From the NCBI RefSeq assembly GCF_010015445.1, contig NC_053123.1, forward strand, positions 9,875,934 through 9,939,933: a DNA stretch of 64,000 bases, given 5' to 3'. A program made the position numbers and the translations under genes. The stretch is from Perca fluviatilis. Its lineage: Eukaryota > Chordata > Actinopteri > Perciformes > Percidae. Position 1 is the first letter of the stretch. Every line of letters starts with the position of its first letter. The notes under the pieces are model-generated. The model had not been told where the DNA came from, did no database searches, and worked only from the letters and a program-made list of their open reading frames with translations. This document shows positions 44,365 through 64,000 of the stretch, one piece after another.

Positions 44365-44863
44365 CTCTTTCGATTAGAACAAAATTGCGGTAAATCGTCC
44401 TTGATCCAAATATTTATTTACTCGTGCACTAAGCCTTAGATTAATAGTAGGGCCTGAAAGAGATAGAATAAGTTCCTATCAACCTACCTGTTTTTTGCAT
44501 TGACATATATTTTTTGGCTTGTGCTGGTGTTATGCTACATGTTCCTCTCAATATTTAGCCTACCTATTAAACGGATGTTGCATTTGAGTTCCTGCATACT
44601 TTCAATTTAGCTTAATTCGCATTGAGCTCAACTCTGTAGGCTTCATGAACAAGAAAACCCGCTGCAGGCCCTAAACAATTTAGCCGAACTTTTAAGACCT
44701 GACATTTTACTGGACATTGTAGTACAAATGTGTCGAAATACTCTCTAACATCCGAGTAGGGACGGCGCTTTTATTCTGAAGAAACCAGAGCGGAAGTGTT
44801 GCTGCTGCTGAGGAAGCAAAGAGTAGAATGTGTACGAGATCTCCTGAACTGAATACAGACAAG

Positions 44864-47800
44864 ATGGAAAACATCTCCATTGACAGTTTAATCCTGAAGC
44901 TCCACGATGTGAACGCGGTGAAATTTGGAGAATACAAGCTGAAGAGCGGCATGCTGACACCCATTTATATCGACCTGAGGGTTCTCGTGTCCTACCCCGC
45001 GCTCATGAACCAGGTAAACACGTGCTGTTCTTCCCTCCGCACGTCCTGATTCACTTTAAATTAAATGTGCTAAAGGGACAACTGTTCAACATAACATTAC
45101 ATTATCCAAAGAATAAATGTTAAATTCACGCTACAACGTAACTTGAAGTTTCCCCGTGTTGAAGTAATGTGATATTGGTGCACACGTGGGTGTATATCGG
45201 CAGATAAAAGTGCCAACATTTACAGGAATCTAACCCCAAACAGGAAATCTGACTCCAGCTTTTAGTTACGCTCAAAGTACATACACAGAAATCAGCGCCG
45301 GCTCGAGCCTTTTGGGGGCCCTAAGCAGAATTCGATTTGTGGCCCCTCCCACCACGCGGAACCACCTGTGCTTGACTATTATTGACACAAATGTCACGCT
45401 ATAATGTTACATTATAAACAGTGTTGGGGAGTAACGGAATACATGTAACGGCGTTACGTATTCAGAATACAAATTATGAGTAACTGTATTCCGTTACAGT
45501 TAAAATTTAAATCGTTGGTATTTAGAATACAGTTACATTGTTGAAATCAATGGATTACATGACGATACTGATCTGTTTCACGAGTTTATTCACTCTGACT
45601 AAATTAAGGCAACTCTATGCATTTTCCAGAAGCCCCGATATGAAATCGAAAAAATAGCTGCTTCGTGATCAGTCATAATGGAGTCGGAACCGGCACGACA
45701 GAGCCAGGGCAGGAATAAGTTTCTATCTTGGAAATTCAAACAGCATTTCACATTAAAGAACGAACAGGGAGAATGAAATATAACTGTGCAGTGCAACCGG
45801 TGCTTGCCAGCAACCAACCTCCTTTCAGCGTCCAAATGACTCCATCTCCAACCTGAAGAAGCATCTTAAAGTAAGCTATTTTTTTAATTAGCCAAGGGTA
45901 GTCGTCTGCTGTAGTTTTACTGGTCACCTTGCTATTTTAACGTTGACGTGCGACTTTACATTCTCCTACGTGCTGATTTACTAGCTCCAGAGCCGTTTAA
46001 AGACTGACTAGCCCCGTTTGACATGCTAGCTAACGTTAGCTAAAATTAGCTCGTGGTAGCAAGACTGCGGTTAGATTTTTGTAGTATGCAGTTCAGGACT
46101 ACCAATACAATAATCTATCTGCTTGTTCAGGTACACATTCAGCTAGTTGGAATAAAAAGAACACACCATTATAGGCCTGTTTAGTAAGCTGGAAGTGATA
46201 GCTGCATTCCTACACTTATAAAACGCAATTCAATGTGGAAGTAATCCAAGTATTCAGAATACGTTACTCAGATTGAGTAACGTAACGGAATACGTTACAA
46301 ATTACATTTGTGGGCATGTATTCTGTATTCTGTAACGAAATACGTTTTGAAAGTATCCTTCCCCAACACTGATTATAAATTAATACAGTGACGGATTATG
46401 AACTACTGTCCCCCTGGGCACAGATGCATAAGGACCCTCCCCCTACTCTATTTGTGCAAAATTAGGTGCAAACTCAAAAATGTTGAATTTTGTAGATGTG
46501 ATTTCCTGTATTCTGGTGCATTTTTGGGATGGTCAGCTGGAGAAGGGCAATACCTAAATTTGTTCAGATTCATAGCCTTTGGCTTTTTGACTTATTAAGG
46601 TAGTGACTTCACGCAACTACTTGGGCTTCAGGGCTAATCAAGACGTTCAATCCCACAGGACTTTATGTTGGAGTAAAATATATCTATTTATCCTAATAGA
46701 AATGCATATTTAGATTTTTGTCTTCCTTGTTTTTAGCCGTATGTATATTTCTGTCAGAAATATACATACGGCTAAAAACAAGGAAGAAGAGCGGAACGAG
46801 GTAAACATCGGACTGGCTACACCTTTTTTCAGATACGTTAAGTTTGTGAAAATGGGCTGGCGTTTTTCAATAAGCCTCATTCAGGGACGAGAGACCTACG
46901 TGAAAGATGCAAACTATGCAATATACGATTGTTTATATGTGTACTGCCCCTCATAGGCCTAGTCCAAAAAAAAAAATCTGAAACAGAAATCACTACAATT
47001 CTCTCTATTGCAAACACATTTACTTTAGCCTCCAAAATAATCACATATTTCAGTCAACATCTCCTTGACACAGTTTAAAAAAACATTGAACATTATCGTC
47101 TTTACAAATGTAGGCTATGCAAGAAATGTTAAGACTGCTCCAACACTTAACGATATGGTATATCTTACCAACATTTGGTCATGTTAAAACATAAAAGGTT
47201 CCACCAGAAACAGTTTTCACAAAGTTGTTGAGTTTATCGCCTCTGGAGGTTTTAGAAAAATGGATTTTATAGTTTAAACATAATCGGGAACAGTAAATGA
47301 AAAGCGTGAATGAAAATGTAGGTTTTGATTGCCCAGTAGTGTAATGTAATGTAGTCTAGCCCCCACCTACAACACTGCCACATTAGAATCTGGACCCCTT
47401 TTTTGTTGTTTTATTTGCAGGTGTCAAGTCTCATTTACCAGCGAGTGCAAGAAGAGGGACTGCAGTTTGACTCAGTGTGTGGGGTTCCATACACAGCCCT
47501 GCCTTTGGCCACAATCATCTGTTCTAGGCATGAATTGCCCATGCTCATCAGGCGAAAGGAGGCCAAGGACTATGGTGGGTGGCTGGGCTTGTGTCAGCTT
47601 TATTAATCAAGCCTTTATAAGTATTCCCCTTTGGATTTGTTCGTCAACCGTAAGAAACCACAAGAATGACTTTTGTTGGGATGGATGTTTGTGGTTTAGA
47701 ATTGTCCCATTTTGCAGCACTTTAATCTGGATAGTGATATGTATCCGATCCTAAGCTCATTTAAAAAAGCAAAAATAATCAAATAAATGCATTCTAATTC

Positions 47801-48898
47801 CCACCCACAATGATACCTTGATACCATATGGAGCTGCTGTTGCGCCATAAAGGTTAAAATGTTCACTAATACCACAGTTTTGGCGACAACTGATGTAATA
47901 GGTCTTTTCTCTCACCTGTCAAAGACAAACACCTAACTGTTCCACCCCTAAATTAGACAAGTTGCAGCGTGATTGAAAGTTAAGATGTTCGAACACGAGA
48001 CAGGAGCCTTTTCGGACTTGTGTAATTGGGAGCTGATTTATCTTCTTTTTTTTTTAAGTCTCAGCTGGCTTGAGACACGTGCATTGTTCCTTCTTTTTTT
48101 TTTTCGTGGACATTGACCTGCATGCAAAGCTGTTTGCCAATCAGTGACATTCCTCTGGCCCTACAAAGCTGAAAAATGTTGACTTAAGCCCTGAAAGTGA
48201 AGTTTCTCTCTCTCTCTCCTAAGACAATCTGACCATACATATGTGATTTGAAGCATATTTGTAAATCAGCAGAAACCTTTTCTCCATTGGAAGATGACTC
48301 TGCCAAGGCCTTGAATTAGAGTAACAGACACTATGACTCAGTTTGCCCAGAACAGGGAGTGATAAGGCTCCTTATGTAACCCTTTTAGGAACCAAGCGTC
48401 TGGTGGAGGGCTCGTTTCAGGAGGGGGACATATGCCTGATCATCGAGGACACCGTGACCAGTGGCAGCAGCATCCTGGAGACTGCTGAAGTGCTCAACAA
48501 AGGGGGACTAAAGGTGCAGTTTAAAAAAAAAAAAAAAAAAAGATTACAGTAGGGATGATAGTGTAACATGGATGCTTTTTGTTTGAATAATCACTGTAAA
48601 GGTTATAAAAGTCCATCAAGAACTGTAATAAGTTTACCAAGGGCAGCAGCCATCCTAAACCTGGCCCCAGTGGGCGTAATCCTCCTTTTGAAATCTTGTA
48701 TTTGTTTTAGGTGACGGATGCCGTGGTACTAATGGACCGAGAGCAAGGCGGTGTCGATATGTTGGCTTCTCAGGGAATCAAGCTCCATCCCATCATCTCC
48801 ATGTTCAAGCTGCTCAACGTGCTGCTGGCAGCTGAACGCATCGACGCTCAAACTGCCCAGAATGTCCGCACGTTCATCCAGGACAACAACACGTTCAG
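44864..48898 (+). CDS. umps: umps exons 1-4: orotate phosphoribosyltransferase domain
   Basis: Exon 1 has [20 protein letters not shown], exon 2 has [18 protein letters not shown] and [12 protein letters not shown], and exon 3 has the PRPP-binding motif [17 protein letters not shown]. Exon 4 reads [18 protein letters not shown] and ends FIQDNNTF in phase 2. All key OPRT segments are present, so this domain should be able to fold. Introns are phase 0, 1 and 0. Confidence 0.92.
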
Positions 48899-51800
48899 GT
48901 ACAGTCGCACAGTTCCCTCTCCCTAAGATGGCAGAAATAGTTTTTTTAACAAGTACTTTACATGTTGGTTGGTTGGTTGATTGGTTGATTGATTGATTGA
49001 TTGATTGATTGATTTATTTTCTGGATCAAGACGATGAAATGGTAATGTAAAATACTTATTTCCAGCACGGTCCTTGGTGTTACACACATGAAAGAATATA
49101 CAAGAAGCAAACAAACCAGACTAAAAAGACATACAATATGAGGGGGGGGGTAAAATAAAATAAAAATGCTGTAAAAACAAACTAAATAAAAAAAACAAAA
49201 AATGCTGTAAAAACTCTCCAATTTGTCAATAAATATTCAACTTGTTCCATAAAAGTTGCTTGACCTGTGTTTTAAGAATCCCTCGTGATGATAGGAGTTT
49301 TGTAGCATTAGGCAAACTATTCCATGCCATGATACCAGTGTAAAAAGAATTTTTTTTTTTTTTTGCATTAGTAGCTCTAAGAACTATCAAGCCGGATGCT
49401 GGCCCTATATATTGCATCCTGCGTTCATCCTTGTTCCCTTAGTGCATTCCATTTGTCACACCACTACCATGTTCCTCGTCCCCTTTCTTTCCTTCCTTCT
49501 TTCCCCATGTCCTTCTCTCCTACTTCCCATTCCTTCCATTTATTCATCTTATCCTCCTTCATGTCCTTCCATTCCTTCCAGGGTCCCCTCCTTTCTTTGT
49601 ACACTTGTCTCCACTGTGCTTTCTTCCTCCTTCCATTTATCATTCCATATCCATTATCTTTCTTCCTCTTCCACCATTCCTTCATTTTCCTCCATGATTC
49701 CTCTTCTACATCCCTCCACTATTTTCTCTCTTCCATCTGTCCATTCCATTCCCTTCTCTCATCTGTCCATTCTCCTTTATTTCCACTATTTCCTTTTCTT
49801 CATTTTCCTTCCTCTCTGCTCTTTCCTCTCTCTCTCTATGTACGTTCCTCTCTATCTATGTATATTCTCTCTATATATATGCTGTATATCTGTCTGTATC
49901 TGTGTCTCTCTCTCTTCTCTCTGTTCCTCTCTCTCTCTCTCTCTCTTTCTCTCTCCTCTCTCTCTTTTCCTGCCTATGTCTCTCTCTCTCTCTCTCTCCT
50001 TCTCTGCTCTCTTTCTCTCTCCTCTTCCTCTCTTATATATATATTCTCTCTCTGCTCTTTTCCTCTCTCTCTATATATATCTCTCTTTCTCTGTCTGTCT
50101 CTCCTCTCTCTCTTTCTCTCTCTCTCTATAAATATATATATATAATTTGCTCTCTCTCCTCCTTGTCTCTCTCTGTCTCTGTCTGTATATGTATTTTTTT
50201 TCCTGTATGCTCTCTGTGTCTCTCTGTCTCTCTTCCTGTCTCTCTCTGTGTGCCTCTCTATCTGTATGTGTCTCTTTGTCTGCCTGTGTCTGTGTGCTGT
50301 CTGTCTCTGTGTGTGTGTCTGTGTGTGTGTGTGTGTGTATGTGTGTGTGTATATGTGTATGTGTGTATGTGTGTATATGTGTATGTATGTGCTATATGTG
50401 TGTGTGTATATATATGTATGTATATGTGTGTATATGTGTATGTATGTATGTATGTGTGTATGTATGTGTATATGTGTGTGTGTGTATATGTGTATGTATG
50501 TATATGTATATATGTATATATGTATATATATATATGTGTGTGTGTATATATATGTGTATATGTCACCTGAAATGGTTTTCACTTCACAGGTGTGCTTTGT
50601 CAGGGAAGTTTTTCCCTTATTAATAAAAAAAGCAAAGGGTGGCTACTTTGAAGAATCTAAAATATATTTTATTAATAAAAACTCTACTCTAATAATCTTC
50701 CACTAATTAACCCTGACAAAGCACACCTGTGAAGTGAAAACCATTTCAGGTGACTACCTCATGAAGCTCATTGAGAGAACACCAAGGATTTGCAGAGTTA
50801 TCAAAAAAGCAAAGGGTGGCTACTTTGAAGAATCTAAAATATAAGACATGTTTTCAGTTATTTCACACTTTTTTGTTAAGTACATAATTCCATATGTGTT
50901 CATTCATAGTTTTCATGCCTTCAGTGAGAATCTACAATGTAAATAGTCATGAAAATAAAGAAACACATTGAATGAGAAGGTGTGTCCAAACTTTTGGCGT
51001 GCGTGCATGCGTGCGTGTGTGTCTGTTTATGTATGCTATCGGTCTTTACAGCTGAAGATGGCAGAGGAGCAGTCGGACTTTGTGATCGGCTTCATCTGTG
51101 GCTCTAAGATCACCCAGAGGCCAGAGTTCATCCACATGACCCCCGGGGTGCAGATTCAGGCTGGAGGTACATTTGACTCTTATTTTAAAGAGACTTGCAT
51201 TTGCCATTTCTTTGTATTCGGTCGATTTGTTTTCCTACAAATTATGTAATTTTACATTCATATGTTTATATTTACATTTGAGTACATGTTCACATTTTAA
51301 GAGGAAACTGAAATCGTGACACACATGCATACACACTCCAACTTCAATATTATTAATCGGTTGTGTTTGTGAATTTTAGGGGTTGATTTTGGATGCATTT
51401 TGTGTTATAGTGTACTTTTTGGTGCACCTACTTTGTCTCACCTAGGAGAGGCACATACTGTGTTTTTATAAAATGAATAAATGCACCACTACAACAAGGT
51501 TGAACCTCATACAGTGTGTCCCATACTGTGTGTGTTTGGACAGTGACACGTTTAGAATGGTTTTGCTCTGTACTCCCCCCACATCAGATTTGAAATGAAA
51601 CAATTACTATTAGGTTAAAGTGCTAACTTTCTGCTTTAAGGGTGTTTGATGTGTATTGGTATTGGTTGAACAATATAGGAAACCAGCCCTTTTTTATACA
51701 TAATATCCCAATAGTAGGACAATGCCTGGCACAACCTGGCAGACTTAATGTGCGGTAGGATTTTTTGTTATTTTTTTTATGGTGATTTATCTTTGATGCC

Positions 51801-52149
51801 TTAAACATAGACAGGAAAAGGGTGTAACTTGATTCCTTTCCACTCTGCTCTCGTTGTGGTGTTATGACTCCTCTTTAACACAAGGATGAGCTATAGTACA
51901 AGAAATGATTGCTGGGCCTGCTGTAGTCCTCCTCACACCCCTCAACACCCTCCCCCTCTTTCTCTTGCAGGTGATGGGTTGGGCCAGCAGTACTCCACCC
52001 CAGAGGAAGTCCTCTACAACAAAGGCTCTGATGTCATCATCGTCGGTCGGGGTATCCTGGAGGCCCCTGATAGGCTGAAAGCTGTTGAATCATACAGAAA
52101 GTCCGGCTGGGAGGCTTACACAAAGAGACTGGGCCAGAGTGGCCAATAG
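44864..52149 (+). CDS. umps: umps, bifunctional UMP synthase, decarboxylase core missing
   Basis: Cytosolic enzyme for the last two steps of pyrimidine synthesis: orotate to OMP (OPRT domain), then OMP to UMP (decarboxylase domain). Exons found: 44864-45013, 47421-47574, 48389-48513, 48711-48898, 51052-51166 and 51971-52149. Together they give about 302 residues; the family has about 480. The missing ~175 residues lie between exons 4 and 5 and include the catalytic Lys/Asp segment. Exon 4 ends in phase 2 and the next starts in phase 0, so at least one exon is absent. All six exons are open and well conserved. The ATG at 44864 was chosen (strong context ACAAGATGG); an upstream in-frame ATG lies at 44828. 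Confidence 0.9.
45419..46371 (+). mobile_element. non-autonomous hAT element keeping a BED-finger exon
   Basis: A 953-bp element with terminal inverted repeats CAGTGTTGGGGA / TCCCCAACACTG, bounded by a perfect 8-bp target-site duplication attataaa (45411-45418 and 46372-46379), the hAT signature. An ATG at 45678 opens a stretch reading [19 protein letters not shown], then after a stop and frameshift [19 protein letters not shown]. This resembles the BED zinc finger at the start of hAT transposases, with CxxC visible. The catalytic part is absent. Confidence 0.88.
46721..46787. repeat. perfect 67-bp palindrome (33-bp arms, 1-bp loop)
   Basis: Arms 46721-46753 and 46755-46787 are exact reverse complements around a single T at 46754. 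No mismatch in 33 pairs. Confidence 0.95.
47575..48388. other. umps: umps intron 2
   Basis: 0.8 kb of unique AT-rich sequence. Nothing beyond T runs and a short CT run near 48205 is seen. Confidence 0.5.
48963..49420 (-). mobile_element. 5'-truncated LINE 3' end with (GATT)n tail
   Basis: On the minus strand 49417-49226 reads [20 protein letters not shown] and [11 protein letters not shown], like the last residues of non-LTR reverse transcriptases of the CR1/L2/Rex type (WNSLP ... K..LK..L). The copy then runs to a tetranucleotide tail, (GATT)n on the plus strand at 48970-49013, as is common for such LINEs. Confidence 0.6.
49440..50561. repeat. long degenerate compound microsatellite, CT to GT to TA
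   Basis: About 1.1 kb passes gradually from TTCC/CCTT-rich, through CTCT(C/G)T, to TGTG and TGTATG steps. It is free of stops on several frames, which explains long Leu/Ser and Cys/Val open frames here. None is a gene. Confidence 0.9.
50563..50998. repeat. rearranged interspersed repeat with inverted and direct copies
   Basis: A 43-bp block at 50563-50605 occurs as its exact reverse complement at 50711-50753. A 41-bp block (about 50625-50666) recurs directly at 50803-50843. The right part ends in 'gtgtgtccaaacttttggc', wording that I recall from a repeat common in fish. The class is uncertain. Confidence 0.7.
51052..52149 (+). CDS. umps: umps exons 5-6 as found: C-terminal end of OMP decarboxylase
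   Basis: Exon 51052-51166 reads [20 protein letters not shown] and [10 protein letters not shown]; exon 51971-52149 reads [27 protein letters not shown] (as VIIVGRGI) and ends at TAG. These are the phosphate-binding end of the barrel. The intron between them is phase 1. Confidence 0.92.
51167..51970. other. umps: umps last intron
   Basis: 0.8 kb, no exon or classified repeat seen. Confidence 0.5.
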
Positions 52150-55760: not shown

Positions 55761-56830
55761 CCTCGTCTAAAGGTAGGCTGTAAGGCTTTTCATTCATTTC
55801 TTATTTTCTTCAGAGTATCCATTCTTACAAGAGTGTGCATTTGATGGTGTTCTAACTTCTCCCAAATCTTCTACCAAAGGTTACCTGACAACAGAAAGGC
55901 CAGCTGTTACGCGCTCCCTACCTCTCTCTCTCTCTTTCTCTGGATCCTCGTCACACTGTGATCGTTTTTGTGACTTTTTCATGTCCGTATTTGCTTCACG
56001 TTGAGCCTCACGTACAATACCTGAAGATGAAGTTTTGTTCGTTCGGCTCGCGTTATGCAGGTACGGGTTGGCAACTGGAAAAGACACAAAGTTTGTTCTT
56101 AGTTATGGGAGCATCATCACCGTTGTCAACACTGTCAAGCTTCATTTCAGACAAATAATGGAGTGTTGTTTTTGTTTGAGTTGTTTTAAAGTTTGTTGGT
56201 TCAAGGGCGCCAAATGTGGGAGGACAGATGGGTAAGGCCACATATTGCTGCAGCACGAGTGAGTCAAATTACAGTAATAAAAGTCTTGAAAATCTTCAAA
56301 AATGTATAAGACTTTTCTAAGAAAAATAGAAACATTAGCCATTAGACCAAGACCATTGCTCAATCTGAGACAACTTGATAACAACATAGTTTCAGTGACT
56401 GAAGCACCAGGTGTAACCATATTTCAATGGATAGATTGCCTTATTTGCATACAGCTGGCAACAGGCAGTGCTCTCAAAGAAAACTATGTCAGCCTTGGAC
56501 AACTTTTGGCCTGGCTATATGAAGTCACAACCATTTATCCAATGGTAAATAAAAAAAAAAAGAAGCTGTTCAAAGAAAACTCATTTCCTGACTCATTTGA
56601 GTAGAAATGTAAAGATTCTTTGTTGAATAAGTACAGAACAGCACAGAAAAGGTTACTGCGGGTGAATCGGTTGATTCAGGTAATCAAGGCAGTTCATAAA
56701 TAAAAAGTTCCAGTTTAAATCCAACTCTTGTTTTTACTGAAATGGTAAAAGTCAGGATTATAAATATCACATCATTCCAAATATTAATGTAAAACCTGTC
56801 GCTTTTAACAGACACACCTGTCTGTTCAAG

Positions 56831-63045: not shown

Positions 63046-64000
63046 CAGTGTTGGGAAGGATACTTTCAAAACGTATTTCGTTACAGAATACAGAATACAT
63101 GCCCACAAATGTAATTTGTAACGTATTCCGTTACGTTACTCAATCTGAGTAACGTATTCTGAATACTTGGGTTACTTCAGGATTACTTCCACATTGAATT
63201 GCGTTTTATAAGTGTAGGAATGCAGCTATCACATCCAGCTTACTAAACAGGCCTATAATGGTGTGTTCTTTTTATTCCAACTAGCTGAATGTGTACCTGA
63301 ACAAGCAGATAGATTATTGTATTGGTAGTCCCGAACTGCATACTACAAAAATCTAACCGCAGTCTTGCTACCACGAGCTAATTTTAGCTAACGTTAGTTA
63401 GCATGTCAAACGGGGCTAGTCAGTCTTTAAACGGCTCTGGAGCTAGTAAATCAGCACGTAGGAGAATGTAAAGTCGCACGTCAATGTTAAAATAGCAAGG
63501 TGACCAGTAAAACTACAGCAGACGACTACCCTTGGCTAATTAAAAAAATAGCTTACTTTAAGATGCTTCTTCAGGTTGGAGGTGGAGTAATTTGGACGCT
63601 GAAAGGAGGTTGGTTGCTGGCAAGCACCGGTTGCACTGCACAGTTATATTTCATTCTCCCTGTTCGTTCTTTAATGTGAAATGCTGTTTGAATTTCCAAG
63701 ATAGAAACTTATTCCTGCCCTGGCTCTGTCGTGCTGGTTCCGACTCCATTATGACTGATCACACAAATAGCTATTTTTTTCGATTTCATATCGGGGCTTC
63801 TGGAAAATGCATAGAGTTGCCTTAATTTAGTCAGAGTGAATAAACTCGTGAAACAGAGAAGTATCGTCATGTAATCCATTGATTTCAACAATGTAACTGT
63901 ATTCTAAATACCAACGATTTAAATTGTAACTGTAACGGACTACAGTTACTCATAATTTGTATTCTGAATACGTAACGCCGTTACATGTATTCCGTTACTC
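63046..64000 (-). mobile_element. hAT element, second copy, cut by window end
   Basis: Starts CAGTGTTGGGAAGG and follows the reverse complement of 45419-46371 almost to its end; about ten bases of the far terminal repeat fall outside the window. The left flank 'catacaga' (63038-63045) would be the 8-bp duplication. The BED-finger stretch lies at about 63560-63770 on the minus strand. Confidence 0.88.

Follow-up and report, generated by a model that had tools for sequence, protein, structure and literature searches.

Absence of the OMP decarboxylase core from umps in a Perca fluviatilis chromosome sequence, a probable assembly fault

Introduction

Has Perca fluviatilis lost the catalytic core of its OMP decarboxylase, or have the exons that encode it been lost from the genome sequence? 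The question is raised by the umps gene in a 64,000-nucleotide stretch of P. fluviatilis DNA (NC_053123.1, positions 9,875,934–9,939,933; referred to in the following as the window). The UMP synthesis step is regarded as essential in vertebrates, and to our knowledge the decarboxylase domain of UMPS is the sole OMP decarboxylase that vertebrates have. We consider it most likely that the core exons were falsely lost in the assembly, rather than that the enzyme was lost by the fish. A real deletion, most plausibly one that was heterozygous in the sequenced animal, is unlikely.

Results

Exon structure and surroundings of umps

We identified six umps coding exons, all with GT/AG borders and on the + strand, from 44864 to 52149:

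44864-45013, +, exon 1, start of OPRT; the ATG at 44864 corresponds to the start of homologues
47421-47574, +, exon 2, OPRT
48389-48513, +, exon 3, OPRT
48711-48898, +, exon 4, end of OPRT (...QDNNTF plus AG), donor in phase 2 (AG/gtacag)
51052-51166, +, decarboxylase exon (...QIQAGG), 115 nt, phase 0 (cag/CTG)
51971-52149, +, last coding exon, end of the decarboxylase, stop TAG

The deposited P. fluviatilis model starts instead at the ATG at 44828, so that its exon 1 spans 44828..45013. The N-terminal OPRT domain is present, matching Pribosyltran (PF00156) in Pfam with an E value of 2.6e-10, and exon 4 is 100% identical to residues 144–205 of P0002, the Perca flavescens protein. The downstream side matches positions 139–221 of 221 of OMPdecase (PF00215; Pfam, E 2.6e-19), and the last two exons align to the end of UMP synthase structures. 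When the six exons were checked for decay, no stop, frameshift or broken splice site was found in them, and pseudogene decay was therefore rejected. An earlier interpretation made from the letters alone, referred to here as the sequence-only reading, had described the exons for OPRT and for the decarboxylase C-terminus as intact, in agreement with the six exons, their GT/AG borders and the Pfam matches on both sides.

The two sets of exons do not fit together. Joining exon 4 directly to the 51052-51166 exon places phase 2 against phase 0 and shifts the frame immediately, as the sequence-only reading had stated. Nor can the frame be rescued by skipping: exon 4 is out of frame with either of the remaining exons (phase 2 onto 0 or 1), and the decarboxylase exons therefore cannot follow a complete OPRT in frame. 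Exon 3 could be spliced in frame to the 115-nt exon (phase 0 to 0), but the end of OPRT would be lost and the core would still be absent.

Five ORFs on the + strand at 10.5–40.0 kb, chosen by eye, matched fibronectin type I (four) and type III (one) domains; this is consistent with fn1 lying immediately upstream of umps. On the other side of umps lies a microRNA gene:

55994-56058, +, mir-375 precursor, some 3.8 kb beyond the stop codon of umps; Rfam RF00700, 75.4 bits

Two near-identical translated stretches were also seen in opposite orientations, at 45602-45865 (−) and 63562-63822 (+). The first lies in umps intron 1, and the ends of the region surrounding it look like inverted repeats by eye; we take this region to resemble a non-autonomous hAT-type element.

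The missing decarboxylase core

The closest intact full-length protein among the matches listed was P. flavescens P0002, with 487 aa. It resembles the window closely, at 99.0% identity in the OPRT part and 97.9% in the decarboxylase end, but its residues 206-390, which hold the catalytic segment, have no counterpart in the window. These 185 residues, which include FEDRKFADIG, would be expected in the following interval:

48899..51051, +, 2,153 bases between exon 4 and the 115-nt exon, lacking the 553 nt expected to encode P0002 residues 206-390

Adding 553 nt reconciles phase 2 with phase 0 and gives a frame of 487 residues, as in P0002. The sequence-only reading had put the loss at about 175 residues; against P. 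flavescens P0002 it is 185. In the best 120 of 2815 homologues, the spacing between the flanks was exactly 185 residues in 75 and between 181 and 189 residues in 108, while 12 fell outside this range, one of them a scrambled model. The pattern FxDRKFxDIG was present in 119 of the same 120, the exception being P0095.

Core-only tblastn queries from P0002, P0003, P0005 and P0066 (185, 184, 185 and 185 aa, respectively) were run against the whole window, where their best E values were 0.42, 0.31, 1.7 and 1.3. Reversed core pieces, used as a control, gave 1.3, 1.3, 0.42 and 0.74 in the same order; because these score alike, the core matches are at chance level. Two such P0005 matches fell in the interval or at its edge, with E values of 4 and 7 and 21–22% identity. 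The Asp-x-Lys-x-x-Asp segment of UMP synthase, which we take to be catalytic in OMP decarboxylase, was absent from the window by both tblastn and a motif scan: DxKxxD occurred nine times in the six frames of the window and not once inside 48899..51051. The claim that umps here lacks its decarboxylase core is thus upheld. By the same two approaches we rejected a core at another position in the window, whether in inverted orientation or on the opposite strand.

Full-length UMPS models were found in three percids, P. flavescens, Sander lucioperca and Etheostoma spectabile. Of the 17 mostly incomplete models in which we looked for core exon borders, one gave a hint, zebrafish P0124, which aligned to residue 309. 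Since only this model hints at a border, the count of two exons for the missing core is weakly based. The one model listed above P0002, P0001 from Coryphaenoides rupestris, is scrambled, with its OPRT and C-terminal blocks repeated, and is probably a further assembly or annotation fault.

The interval between the exons

The interval was said in the sequence-only reading to be full of repeats, and this was borne out by a TTGA tandem repeat, a C/T-rich and TG/TA tract and an inverted-repeat fragment. Besides the TTGA repeat, we distinguished:

49226..49438, −, open stretch resembling a LINE-like protein tail
49440..50561, +, low-complexity tract of 1.1 kb that passes from C/T-rich sequence through imperfect TC to a TG/TA microsatellite; start set by eye
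50562..50998, +, inverted-repeat element fragment, presumably Tc1-like; right arm ends at 50998

We take the open stretch to resemble the tail of a LINE-encoded protein and the inverted-repeat fragment to be Tc1-like; neither peptide had a Pfam match. The left arm of the fragment is only 44 nt long (50562-50605), an exact inverted match to 50711-50754 of the longer right arm, with the TG tract immediately before it. Provided that the arms of the element were once equal, the edge between the TG tract and the left arm would be a candidate join point. A naturally truncated element would give an identical picture at this edge, and truncated transposons do occur naturally next to microsatellites. 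The window contains no N letters. Three features that accord with a false exon loss were seen at this locus, namely close relatives that have the exons, undecayed flanks and a candidate join within repeats.

The deposited protein and related records

Protein searches were made with the full query, OPRT only and the core only, and the best 120 of 2815, 730 and 3525 matches, respectively, were considered. In the OPRT-only search, P0121, "hypothetical protein PFLUV_G00142800 [Perca fluviatilis]", a protein of 226 aa, was 100% identical across the whole query. P0121 is a cluster of 4 member sequences, judged here on one. Translation of exons 1–4 from the ATG at 44828, continued beyond the donor of exon 4 as far as the first stop, yields it letter for letter, the last part being:

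48899..48926, +, start of the intron as translated in P0121 (RYSRTVPSP), stop at 48924-48926, exact match

The deposited annotation therefore has the same gap as the window, and the gap is therefore not limited to the window.

This truncated P0121 was the sole P. fluviatilis umps record among the matches listed. The best 120 of 2815 full-query matches held no entry named P. fluviatilis, and those without a species name had at most 92% identity. None of the best 120 of 3525 core-only matches (candidates of about 102–324 aa) was named P. fluviatilis, the top match among those listed being from Amphilophus, with 91% identity over 82% of the query. The protein database is reportedly clustered at 90%, and clusters P0009 (11 members) and P0012 (30 members), 91–92% identical to P. 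flavescens, could conceal a P. fluviatilis record. Several percid proteins that are mutually 93–99% identical are, however, listed separately; clustering at 90% thus does not merge every close pair, which weakens the excuse of a hidden record. We found no literature naming both Perca fluviatilis and umps, and none joining umps, orotidine decarboxylase and zebrafish.

OPRT-only records were also seen in other fishes. Oreochromis P0122, P0128 and P0129 carry a tail of the RYNFTEF type and end where the perch model ends. On their letters, these tails look like read-through of the same intron, either as a shared annotation habit or as an intron-retention isoform. Five "umps-like" records of 216–258 aa came from Hoplias malabaricus (P0127, P0130, P0134, P0137 and P0138), each listed with a sequence of 41,943,464 bases, and two were termed isoforms X3 and X4. 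In four of them OPRT is the sole domain, whereas the fifth lacks any precomputed Pfam domain; they may represent a genuine set of OPRT-only copies.

Discussion

We prefer an assembly fault as the explanation of this locus, because the exons are undecayed, three percids have full-length models, the missing domain would be the only OMP decarboxylase of a vertebrate, and a umps defect is lethal in cattle. In the sequence of events that we envisage, the umps locus of the animal would encode both domains, and one contiguous piece, probably two exons with the intervening intron and adjoining intron sequence, would have dropped out of the chromosome sequence. The loss would have occurred at or near the microsatellite and truncated transposon tract at 49.4–51.0 kb, where nanopore reads may have been collapsed or bridged over low-complexity DNA by the assembler or by a gap-closing step. 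Gene prediction would then have ended in the intron past exon 4, yielding the OPRT-only protein of 226 aa. We infer that the loss arose during assembly rather than in the DNA itself, that a single event removed two exons, and which kind of step may have been responsible.

The window presumably derives from the assembly described in PMC11209984. According to the available text of that paper, the P. fluviatilis genome was assembled from nanopore reads longer than 9,999 bp with SmartDeNovo, followed by Racon, Pilon and Hi-C scaffolding, with LR_gapcloser and then short-read polishing as the final steps, and reached an N50 of 39.55 Mb (PMC11209984). Long-read gap closing through low-complexity DNA would leave no N, as in the window. 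Among the false losses recorded by a survey of earlier vertebrate assemblies, missing exons ranked with the commonest, as far as the available text goes (PMC9516821). Those losses likewise consisted of internal exons absent while their neighbours were present, and led to wrong gene models; they differ in having been identified against newer assemblies, with some sites checked in reads, whereas the perch case comes from sequence comparison and a nanopore-based assembly (PMC9516821, available text).

Several observations count against an assembly fault. No core-bearing P. fluviatilis sequence was present among the matches listed. The NCBI annotation of the genome drew on ample RNA-seq, according to the same partial text (PMC11209984), and yet the truncated umps record was the only one among the matches listed. 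At 67-fold coverage, spans of a few kilobases should often be bridged by reads. The abstract of PMC9516821 concerns short-read assemblies, and the climbing perch, the single fish that its available text includes, had the fewest missing exons. We found no literature account of false exon losses in SmartDeNovo assemblies. The sequence-only reading had weighed an assembly fault against a real loss. Its leaning towards the former gains from the full-length percid models, the intact flanks, the lethality in cattle and the assembly route, but stops short of a demonstration.

The most viable alternative, although improbable in our judgement, is that the sequenced fish carried a real deletion of the core exons in the heterozygous state and that the haploid assembly retained the deleted haplotype. 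The interval contains no N and does read as a join, and the short arm of the inverted-repeat fragment starts at the microsatellite edge as a breakpoint might. The codon 405 mutation of DUMPS, the bovine deficiency of UMP synthase, reportedly creates a stop codon. According to the part of PMC2959049 available, DUMPS is caused by a point mutation affecting codon 405, which lies in exon 5, and kills homozygous embryos. It thus offers a precedent for a recessive umps loss allele and, like the perch case, concerns the decarboxylase portion of umps in a vertebrate; it differs in being a recessive lethal point mutation that is neither a deletion of the core nor fixed (PMC2959049, same part). Such an allele would, however, be rare a priori, and no DUMPS carriers were found among the 350 cows reported there (PMC2959049).

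It is somewhat less probable that P. fluviatilis has the core exons, or an entire second copy of umps, at another place in its genome, translocated or misplaced on another contig. Umps-like records in Oreochromis aureus, Pelmatolapia mariae, Fundulus heteroclitus and H. malabaricus are candidate extra copies by name. Against this, no second P. fluviatilis umps record appeared among the best 120 of 2815, 730 and 3525 matches, the core is absent from the 64 kb window, and, were the core to sit on an unplaced contig, that would in itself be an assembly fault. Least probable of all, and very doubtful, is that P. fluviatilis is truly without the core, having OPRT only and depending on its diet and the salvage of pyrimidines, or else on a split enzyme: the deposited protein is indeed OPRT-only and no core-bearing record was found for the species among the best 120 of 2815 and of 3525 matches, but the decarboxylase exons further downstream show no decay, full-length models exist in sister species, neither of the two remaining exons can be joined to exon 4 in frame, and the bovine umps mutation is embryonic lethal in the text available (PMC2959049).

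If the core exons were lost in the assembly, as we favour, the relevance of the finding is for curation only. A real deletion would break a step held to be essential in vertebrates, and a true loss of the core would mean a vertebrate without an OMP decarboxylase of its own, relying on a single-domain OPRT and uridine salvage. The deposited 226-aa P. fluviatilis protein, as it stands, is no evidence that the UMP synthesis pathway has been lost.
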